DNA of 47,127 bases from contig JAADGJ010000133.1 in NCBI GenBank assembly GCA_013152435.1, positions 1 to 47,127 on the forward strand, written 5' to 3'. Position numbers and translations under genes: made by a program. The stretch comes from Chloroflexota bacterium (GTDB lineage Bacteria; Chloroflexota; Anaerolineae; DUEN01). Shown here one piece after another: positions 40,619 to 43,633 of this stretch (positions are counted from its first letter, which is position 1; every line of letters begins with the position of its first letter). The notes beneath the pieces were generated by a model that was not told where the DNA came from, did no database searches, and saw only the letters and a list, made by a program, of their open reading frames with translations.

Positions 40619-42460
40619 CTATTCATAAAGATAGTAGGGCACATCGACGATGATCTCGTTGTGCTCCGTGCGCCGGTAGAGCAAGGCCGCCTTGAGCATG
40701 AGCGCCGTTTGGTTGTGCAACAGATAATGCCACGAACGTCGGGGGACGAACTCCGGCAACACGATCGTCAGCGCATCCCCCTTCTCCAGGGAGGCGCTCA
40801 CCTGGTCGATATAGGACAGCAAGGGCCCCTGCACAGAGCGGTAAGGAGATGGGAGCACGACCAGAGGCACCGGGGTGTTCAACTGATTCCAACGCTCACG
40901 CACGCGCTCCGTGCGCTCCGGCTCTACATCCACCATGACGGCCGTGACATCGTCCGAGACCGACTGGGCATAGTGAAGCGCCTTCAGCGTGCCCCGATGT
41001 ACCCCGGAGATGGGCACGATCACCCGGTGGCGGCGTACCGGTTGCGGAAGCGGCAGGTCCGGCGTCTTGATGGAAAGCTGTCGGCGCACCAAATCGTAAT
41101 GGTGGCGAATGGCCAGGAACACCCGCACCATCAGCGGGATGAGCAAGACCACGATCCAGGCACCGTGCGCGAACTTGGTCGCGGCGATCACCACCAGGAC
41201 GACGCCGGTGGCGACGGCGCCAATGCCATTGATCACGACGTCTCGCTGCCAACCCGGCTCGCGCAGCCGCAGGCTATGACGCACCAACCCGGCCTGGGCC
41301 AGGGTGAACGAAAGGAAGACGCCTACCGCGTACAAGGGGATCAGCGCGTGTGTGCTCCCCCGGAAGAGGGCCAACAGCAACGCCGCCACCCCTCCCAGGA
41401 TCAGGATCCCGTTGGAGAAGACCAGCCGGTCTCCCAGGTTCGCCAGCTGTCTCGGGAGGAAACGGTCCACAGCCATCAGGGAGGCCAGGCGCGGGAACCC
41501 GTTGAAGCTCGTGTTGGCGGCCAGGACCAGGATGAAGGCCGTGGTGGCCTGAATCAGATAGTAGAGCGGGCTTCCATTCCCAAATATCGTTCGGGCAAGC
41601 TGCGAGACAACCGTCTCCCCCTCCACCGGGACGATCCCATACGCCCGGGCCAGCCAGGTGATGCCCAGGAACATGGTGACCAGGAGCACCGCCATGGCCG
41701 CCAGCGTATGGCTGGCGTTGCGATCCTCGGGCGGCTCGAAGGCCATCACGCCGTTGCTGATCGCCTCGATGCCCGTCAGCGCCGTGCACCCGGAGGAGAA
41801 GGCTCGCAGGACCAGGAACATCGTCAGCGCCTGGACCGGCTGCACCGTCTCCCGCACCGGGGGCGGGGAGACATGCCCGGTGACGGCCTTGGCCAGCCCG
41901 GTGCCGATCATCATCAGAAAGCTGACGATGAACAGGTATGTGGGGATGGCGAAAATGGTCCCGGACTCCCGCACGCCGCGCAGATTCCCCCACGTGATGA
42001 GCATGATGAAGAAGACGCCCAGGCCGACCCGGTGATCGTACAGGGCCGGAACGGCGGAGGTGATGGCGGCGACCCCCGCGGACACGCTCACCGCGACGGT
42101 GAGCACGTAATCGATCAGCAAAGCCGCCCCGGCCACCAGCCCGAACATGATGCCCAGGTTTTCCTTAGAGATGATGTACGCGCCGCCGCCGGAGGGATAC
42201 GCGTGAATCCCCTGGTAGTAGGATGTGGCCACAATGGTGAGCAGCGCGGCGATGGCCAACGCGATGGGCCATGACAAAGCCAGCGCCCCTGTTCCGGCCA
42301 ACACCAACACCAACAGGATCTCCTCCGTCGCGTACGCGACGGAGGAGAGGGCATCACTGGAGAATACCGCCAACGCCTTGACCTTGGTCAGCCGCTCGTG
42401 AACCGCCTGACTGGTCTCCAAGGGGCTTCCCACCAGCAGGCGTCTGACGTTTACCCCCAT
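40619..42460 (-). CDS. APC-superfamily permease (KimA/YdaO-like potassium or amino-acid transporter)
   Basis: The protein has about twelve membrane helices and a cytosolic C-terminal domain of about 150 residues (after the last helix near 440). The opening KVKALAVFSSDALSSVAYATEEIL and PSGGGAYIISKENLG match the KimA/YdaO branch, some of which import K+ with protons, while others carry amino acids. The C-terminal part resembles a universal-stress-like fold with HRVIVPISGVHRGTLKAL. Length is 613 residues from ATG 42460, which follows AGGGGGGATGAG. A GTG at 42556 would extend it in frame by 32 residues through a leader hairpin but has no ribosome-binding site. Confidence 0.87.
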   Translation of the reverse strand: MGVNVRRLLVGSPLETSQAVHERLTKVKALAVFSSDALSSVAYATEEILLVLVLAGTGALALSWPIALAIAALLTIVATSYYQGIHAYPSGGGAYIISKENLGIMFGLVAGAALLIDYVLTVAVSVSAGVAAITSAVPALYDHRVGLGVFFIMLITWGNLRGVRESGTIFAIPTYLFIVSFLMMIGTGLAKAVTGHVSPPPVRETVQPVQALTMFLVLRAFSSGCTALTGIEAISNGVMAFEPPEDRNASHTLAAMAVLLVTMFLGITWLARAYGIVPVEGETVVSQLARTIFGNGSPLYYLIQATTAFILVLAANTSFNGFPRLASLMAVDRFLPRQLANLGDRLVFSNGILILGGVAALLLALFRGSTHALIPLYAVGVFLSFTLAQAGLVRHSLRLREPGWQRDVVINGIGAVATGVVLVVIAATKFAHGAWIVVLLIPLMVRVFLAIRHHYDLVRRQLSIKTPDLPLPQPVRRHRVIVPISGVHRGTLKALHYAQSVSDDVTAVMVDVEPERTERVRERWNQLNTPVPLVVLPSPYRSVQGPLLSYIDQVSASLEKGDALTIVLPEFVPRRSWHYLLHNQTALMLKAALLYRRTEHNEIIVDVPYYLYE

Positions 42461-42507
42461 CTCATCCCCCCTTGCGCGCAATCGAAAGGATCGCGTCGAA
42501 AGCACGC

Positions 42508-42533
42508 ACAGAAAGGCCCCGCCTGGCGGGGCC
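42508..42533 (-). terminator. Terminator-like hairpin in the permease leader (possible attenuator)
   Basis: On the minus strand GGCCCCGCC and GGCGGGGCC pair almost without a loop (42533-42525 with 42523-42515), followed by TTTCTGTG. It lies about 40 bases after the predicted transcription start and 50 bases before the start codon, where a terminator would block the gene unless relieved. Confidence 0.55.
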
Positions 42534-42579
42534 ACATCATCATCGTCTCTTGCCACAGCAAAGCGAACGCTTACGCCCC

Positions 42580-42608
42580 TTTATAGCGCAGCCCATCGCT
42601 TCTGTCAA
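42580..42608 (-). promoter_or_regulatory. Consensus promoter of the APC permease gene
   Basis: On the minus strand TTGACA (42608-42603), 17 bases, TATAAA (42585-42580); the start is predicted near 42573. The -35 box is nine bases from the direct repeat that flanks a MITE-like element, so sequence upstream of the promoter has probably been replaced by the insertion. Confidence 0.88.
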
Positions 42609-42617
42609 AATGACCCT

Positions 42618-42900
42618 CGGGTCATCCTAGGGCCTTTTCAAAGGCCAACGTCCATATTGGCATACATGGCGCCTGCAGGGGCGAGGCAAGGTGTCGTGTC
42701 TGTATACGCGTCTTCTCGGTTTCCCCCACCACCCACCGTTGAGCCCCCTTCTCCCGGGCTCGGGAGAAGGGGGGTTGGGGGATGAGGGCTGTTTTCCCTC
42801 GGTCGATGATCAGGAGAATGTCTTGCATCGGGCGACACGCGGGGTGTTCCTACCACCCCGATTTCCATCACTGACTTTGAAAAAGCCCTGCGGGTCATCC
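42618..42900. mobile_element. MITE-like element with flanking 10-bp direct repeats
   Basis: Exact copies of CGGGTCATCC lie at 42618-42627 and 42891-42900. One base inside each are inverted ends: AGGGCCTTTTCAAAG (42629-42643) and CTTTGAAAAAGCCCT (42875-42889), which match at 14 of 15 positions when one is reversed. The 263-bp interior has a 13-bp hairpin (42744-42773) and a 7-bp hairpin (CGGGGTG/CACCCCG near 42840-42860), and no credible gene. This is the structure of a non-autonomous miniature transposable element with a 10-bp target duplication. The parent family was not identified. Confidence 0.7.
42744..42773. repeat. 13-bp hairpin inside the MITE-like element
   Basis: CCCCCTTCTCCCG and its exact reverse complement flank the four-base loop GGCT. 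The purine-rich tail that follows (GGGGTTGGGGGATGAGGG) resembles interspersed spacer repeats often seen in Chloroflexota genomes; that resemblance is from memory, not a search. Confidence 0.65.
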
Positions 42901-43161
42901 CCATCAGGAGAAGCGCGCAGGAACCCGGCTTGCTTCCGCCTCGCGCTCGCCCTTCCGGAAGAAGCCTTTCTCCCGCCTCCGACCTGCCCGGCCTCGGCCC
43001 AGATCCTCGCGGAAAGGGCCGAGAAAGGCAGACAAGCTGGGAAAGTAGGATTTCTGTGGAGGGGCCCCCTCCACACCTCCCCCTGTGAAGCACGCAGAAG
43101 GAAGCTCAACGGATCAGGATCACCGATGAATCAGGATCCACTACCTTGTAAGAAAGGCAGC
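42901..43161. repeat. Palindrome-rich non-coding segment
   Basis: No convincing gene lies here. Several inverted repeats occur: CTCGGCCC/GGGCCGAG (42993-43023), GCCTTTCTC/GAGAAAGGC (42964-43029, competing with the previous stem), and GTGGAGGGG/CCCCTCCAC (43056-43074). A direct repeat ATCAGGATC occurs twice near 43112-43140. It may be a decayed second element or a structured spacer. Open frames crossing it (42638-43093, 42691-43290, 42810-43109) look spurious. Confidence 0.5.
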
Positions 43162-43191
43162 TTGACGGCTTCTCTCACTTCATCTTATAAT
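43162..43191 (+). promoter_or_regulatory. Promoter of the B12-binding subunit and meaB genes
   Basis: TTGACG (43162-43167), 18 bases, TATAAT (43186-43191). The predicted start near 43198 leaves a 25-base leader before ATG 43223 and rules out the in-frame ATG at 43193. Confidence 0.82.
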
Positions 43192-43222
43192 CATGTCACA
43201 CCGATTTCCGATGGGAGACCCT

Positions 43223-43633
43223 ATGTCCGACCGCAAGATCCGAGTCCTAATCGCCAAACCCGGCCTGGACGGCCACGACCGCGGCGCTAAGGTGGTAGCG
43301 CGGGCGCTACGCGACGCGGGGATGGAGGTCATCTACACGGGCATCCGACAAACCCCGGAGATGATCGCCGAGGCCGCCCTGCAGGAGGACGTGGATGTCG
43401 TCGGGTTGAGCATCCTCTCCGGCGCCCACATGACGCTATGCCCTCGCGTTGTGGAGCTGCTGCGACAGCAGGGTATGGACGACATCATCGTGCTCGTCGG
43501 CGGGATCATCCCGGAGGAAGACAAGGCGGCCCTGGAGGCCGCCGGAATCCATGCCGTATTCGGCCCCGGAACTCCTCTACAAGAGATCATCGACTTCGTC
43601 CATCGCGCGGTGAAGGCACCGACTGAGGCATAG
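43223..43633 (+). CDS. B12-binding subunit of methylmalonyl-CoA mutase (C-terminal domain protein)
   Basis: The 136-residue protein is a stand-alone cobalamin-binding domain: DGHDRG at 16-21 with the lower-ligand His18, GLSILSGAH near 64-72 and GGIIPEED near 93-100. It matches the small B12 subunit of two-part acyl-CoA mutases, which rearrange methylmalonyl-CoA and succinyl-CoA or related acyl-CoAs. ATG 43223 has GGGAG five bases upstream. The catalytic large subunit is not adjacent and must be encoded elsewhere. meaB starts four bases after its stop, so the two are cotranscribed. Confidence 0.92.

Follow-up and report, generated by a model that had tools for sequence, protein, structure and literature searches.

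A 263-bp non-coding element beside a permease promoter in a Chloroflexota genome: a probable type I MITE with ISAs1-family ends

A repeat that lies immediately upstream of a promoter may be a regulatory site of the neighbouring gene or the trace of an insertion, and in the latter case the question is which transposase moved it. We considered such a repeat in a 47,127-nucleotide stretch of DNA (the window) from a Chloroflexota bacterium, between a permease gene and a divergently transcribed gene, which an earlier note had read as a MITE-like insertion. Comparison of the sequence with its copies and relatives points, with a probability of about 93%, to a type I MITE with ISAs1-family ends that would have been moved in trans by an ISAs1 transposase and amplified in this lineage.

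Anatomy and copies of the element

The element is 263 bp long (42628..42890, + strand), as defined by genome copies and alignment to their consensus. The component features given in the earlier note were all recovered, namely perfect 10-bp direct repeats (CGGGTCATCC at 42618..42627 and exactly again at 42891..42900, neither with a strand), inverted ends complementary at 14 of 15 positions (42629-42643 against 42875-42889), a 263-bp interior in which an ORF check found short overlapping frames and no credible or gene-like ORF (42628-42890), and internal hairpins. The bounds alone were revised: comparison with other copies and the parent IS places them at the T of 42628 and the G of 42890, one base outside the inverted ends noted earlier, so that the duplication directly abuts the element. 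The left end (IRL; 42628..42646, + strand) reads TAGGGCCTTTTCAAAGGCC, with a family consensus of TAGGGCCTTTTCAAAGTCC and CAGGGCCTTTTCAAAGTC in the parent IS, and the right end (IRR; 42870..42890, - strand) reads CAGGGCTTTTTCAAAGTCAGT from the outside in, with CAGGGCTTTTTCAAAGTCAGG in the parent IS. The pattern of these terminal inverted repeats (TIR) matched four times in the window with up to three mismatches, compared to 0.26 matches expected. At the centre is a hairpin (42744..42773, no strand) with 13-bp arms (CCCCCTTCTCCCG at 42744-42756 and CGGGAGAAGGGGG at 42761-42773), which forms a core together with the adjoining TTGGGGGATGAGGGC. A single strand of the whole element folded better than all 200 of its dinucleotide shuffles (z -4.8).

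The genome of origin (4.97 Mb in 149 contigs) was searched with positions 42600-42910 and carried the family at about 40 places. End patterns (a left 18-mer and a right 20-mer) were found at tens of sites compared to 0-3 for reversed-pattern controls, and the tally of family ends was about 37 left and 45 right. Intact copies lie on contigs C10, C17, C81, C4, C54, C64 and C6, the last containing a run of N, with partial copies elsewhere, many of which terminate at contig ends. By our own tally from matches and contig ends, 45 of the 298 contig ends fall inside the MITE, so that about 15% of the breaks between contigs in this assembly are due to it; its duplications offer a means of joining contigs again. 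A 287-bp consensus was built from an alignment of the full copies; young copies diverge from it by 0.8-4.3% in a star-like manner, and one older copy by 11%. The window copy differs by seven substitutions over 263 compared positions and lacks a 24-bp internal stretch (GCACACGACGTGGCCAGACGTACC) found in other copies. The TIR 20-mer had no match in viral contigs. A 143-bp pair on C104 was set aside as a fold-back at a contig end. Two copies, on C116 (L039) and C50 (L052), are interrupted at one and the same position within the central hairpin, beside CTGGAGTTTGGCC, which suggests that a further repeat was inserted there.

For the analysis of target sites the element was defined as [T/C]AGGGCC...AGCCCTG, and every left-end flank was compared with every right-end flank. 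Twelve left/right pairs had an exact 9-11-mer in common at a fixed offset, against 0.15 per trial with shuffled flanks. Five of these pairs each flank a single intact copy (C133, the window's contig; C81; C4; C54; C6), six link ends on different contigs, which were split within the repeat during assembly (C114-C62, C29-C4, C125-C19, C28-C109, C75-C145, C64-C54) and one joins two tandem ends on C2 that have a duplication in common between them. The full copies on C10 and C64 had no matching duplication in their flanks; the left end on C64 re-pairs with the right end on C54, which suggests that the C64 copy was recombined or misassembled. The dozens of copies with differing 9-11 bp flanks, together with an IS bearing the same ends, support the MITE reading of the earlier note.

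A candidate driver and its decay

A complete transposase element with the same ends, which the earlier note had proposed as a check, was present in a related genome. Among 396 genomes of the class, the TIR 16-mer CAGGGCYTTTTCAAAG occurred 38 times in the genome of origin, five times in Anaerolineae bacterium isolate AUK314 (G002; same family), five times in G091 and rarely elsewhere, and no such ends were found in the congener G001. In AUK314 the 16-mer bounds an ISAs1-family transposase gene (NCBIfam NF033564 transpos_ISAs1, E 2.5e-66; Pfam PF13808 and PF01609). The left (CAGGGCCTTTTCAAAGTC) and right (CAGGGCTTTTTCAAAGTCAG) ends of this IS match the corresponding ends of the MITE over 17-20 bp and differ from each other at position 7 (C/T) in the same left/right sense; the first base of the MITE left end is T. 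Its left end on C445 and its right end on C305 are flanked by a common exact 10-mer (TTGATAGAGC), which indicates that it makes 10-bp duplications. Other ISAs1 relatives from named genomes have ends of the same style ([CT]AGGG...TCAA(A)GT), and a copy on an Ornithinimicrobium plasmid lies between exact 10-bp repeats (CCTTCTTCCC). ISAs1 duplications are generally 8-10 bp long, and the length at the window element fits the 10 bp of both the AUK314 and the plasmid copies.

IS4 elements generate duplications of 10-12 bp, so another DDE family of this kind could be proposed as the driver, and a duplication of about 10 bp with AGGG ends would by itself fit such a family; the genome of origin also holds a second DDE_Tnp_1 element, on C12. 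However, the C12 element, unlike the MITE, has AGCTCGACTTTGTACG at its ends, the element with exactly matching ends belongs to ISAs1, and the AUK314 IS scores 21 bits against a cut-off of 115 bits for the IS4 model. A driver from another DDE family is thus improbable.

No intact transposase with the MITE ends was found in the genome of origin, where an IS of 1.3-1.5 kb could be missing from the 149-contig assembly, and its two PF01609 transposase matches were rejected as drivers because both have the wrong ends. The same genome did once contain the putative driver: a relic of the same IS extends on C61 from 54521 to about 53979, with segments of 86% and 76-77% identity, a left end at 54521 and an N-terminal transposase fragment (54113-53979) of 78% identity. 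As the present assembly holds only this broken relic, the MITE family is probably immobile now. The locus is a clean case in which the driver family of a MITE can be named from asymmetric ends and duplication length despite decay of the driver in the host.

The C61 relic is split by a copy of a second non-coding repeat family, still more abundant than the first (more than 40 scored matches among 304 candidates), a fragment of which forms the right flank of the MITE in the window (42949-43091). Fuller copies (L042 and L072) have apparent inverted ends like AGAGCGTGTCTGA...TCAGACACGCCCT. The different DDE element of C12 (L072; C12:129395-132919), which is about 1.4 kb long with perfect 16-bp ends, sits inside a copy of this second family.

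The central hairpin in other elements

The core of the MITE (window 42737-42792) was also observed in MITE-like elements with unrelated ends (L075, L079, L081 and L083-L086). Core-bearing elements have GTAACTGTTCACCGTT ends in AUK314 and ATCAAGTTAACGATGCTGAG ends in G001, and the L086 copy from G001, about 290 bp long, folds back on itself almost perfectly. With up to three mismatches the core hairpin was counted 33 times in G000, 11 times in G001 and 58 times in G002, and rarely elsewhere; the reversed pattern gave 26, 4 and 23 matches in the same three genomes, so that for this low-complexity motif the counts are approximate. Tentatively, the core GAGCCCCCTTCTCCC..GGGAGAAGGGGGnnTGGGGGATGAGGGC could be an exchangeable module acquired by unrelated MITE families of one bacterial family, a doubtful proposal that, if true, would perhaps mean that it helps such families to spread or be tolerated. 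Among the features of the MITE, it is this hairpin module common to relatives that merits closer attention. Three consecutive hairpins with stems CCCCCTCCC, TGGGTATTTGCGCGGCGGC and CCCCCTTCTCCC were observed in L076 (G014), and a related multi-hairpin module occurs in L074 from G001, parts of which recur in MITE variants, such as L015, of the genome of origin.

The occurrence of the core hairpin in G001 and G002 without the MITE ends would also fit a REP-like (type II) element, in which a Y1/RAYT transposase moves the hairpin and the inverted ends are incidental. This is very unlikely, since ends and 10-bp duplications accompany the entire 263-287 bp unit from copy to copy, and no core hairpin was found near the Y1_Tnp genes of G000, G002 and G014.

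Insertion beside the permease promoter and relation to known MITEs

The permease gene (40619..42463, - strand) belongs to the amino-acid-permease family (PF13520), with a weak K_trans match. Its promoter lies outside the element (42580..42608, - strand), with a -35 hexamer TTGACA (42608-42603) and a -10 hexamer TATAAA (42585-42580) separated by 17 bp. The promoter scan misses this site because it demands a T at the last -10 position, and the promoter was instead read directly and compared in relatives. Nine bases (42609-42617) separate its -35 box from the left duplication, in agreement with the gap noted earlier. The divergent gene on the other side has a promoter-like site, TTGACG-18-TATAAT, at 43162-43191.

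Orthologues of the permease in G001, G002 and G003 (87, 83 and 54% identical) have the same promoter hexamers and 17-bp spacer, the sequence upstream of the -35 box is different in each, and there was no sign of the MITE upstream of any of the three. Conservation of the promoter in relatives that do not carry the element indicates that the MITE arrived beside a pre-existing promoter and did not create it. The intergenic flanks cannot be aligned between species, so an identically flanked empty site cannot be read directly from these loci. The outcome that the earlier note had set against its own reading, a lone copy with the interior kept in relatives that lack the repeats, was the reverse of what was found.

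Could the element be an operator or attenuator of the permease/methylmalonyl-CoA mutase intergenic region that merely resembles an insertion? It lies between two divergent promoters, and the left duplication forms a palindrome (ATGACCC-TC-GGGTCAT) beside the -35 box. However, dozens of copies occupy unrelated loci and the element is absent upstream of the permease in the three relatives, one of which (G003) has the same divergent neighbour, so that a regulatory origin has hardly any probability left and was rejected. A regulatory role that the MITE acquired later may exist; any effect on permease transcription, as suggested in the earlier note, would be expected to be small. The locus is a caution against reading an upstream repeat of this kind as a regulatory site.

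Separate from the element, the permease leader contains a stem, GGCCCCGCCAGGCGGGGCC-TTTCT, between promoter and start codon (window 42515-42533, - strand), and comparable G+C-rich stems, each with a T-rich run after it, occur in the leaders of the orthologues in G001, G002 and G003, possibly as a conserved attenuator. A search of 42200-43300 against Rfam gave nothing near the gathering threshold.

On the preferred reading, in which ISAs1 drove a type I MITE, the following course can be proposed. An ISAs1 transposase supplied in trans would have bound both ends, of the CAGGGCCTTTTCAAAGTC and CAGGGCTTTTTCAAAGTCAG types, excised or copied the MITE and inserted it at a new target that had been cut in a staggered manner, where gap repair would leave a duplication of about 10 bp. 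Amplification to about 40 copies would have followed the split of the lineage from its sequenced congener. At the permease locus, where the empty site would have read ...ATGACCCTCGGGTCATCCCCATCAGG..., the MITE would have landed in the gap between the divergent promoters, with the permease promoter nine bases past the duplication, and left the core promoters undisturbed. Mobilisation in trans by the ISAs1 IS is what we infer from the matching ends and duplications and from the general definition of MITEs as IS-derived non-autonomous elements (PMC3852290).

Text searches of the open-access literature found no ISAs1-linked MITE in the Anaerolineae. We take the family to be new and lineage-specific and its kind, an ISAs1-driven type I MITE, to be known. 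Bacterial MITEs of the type I class (PMC3542288) are likewise short, non-coding and multicopy, with IS-like inverted ends and target duplications (PMC3852290, PMC3542288); the present family falls within their size range (263 bp against about 50-600 bp, with no transposase), has terminal inverted repeats, dispersed copies and copy-specific target duplications, and has its ends in common with an autonomous ISAs1 IS in AUK314, but differs from them in that no intact copy of its driver was found in the assembly that carries it. The ISAs1 IS of AUK314 (JAGHDS010000238.1; L093/L159) has the same two ends, left/right asymmetry and 10-bp duplication, whereas it encodes a transposase and the MITE does not. 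Likeness between the two is confined to the terminal 17-26 bp and the interiors are dissimilar, which indicates that the MITE did not arise from the sampled IS by a simple internal deletion. An internal-deletion derivative of ISAs1 does occur in Anaerolineae bacterium CG2_30_64_16 (L167), a 342-bp element with CAGGGCTGTTTCAAGTTG ends on both sides; it resembles the MITE as a short element with ISAs1 ends, but it keeps about 94 transposase codons and was seen as a single copy with no visible target duplication.
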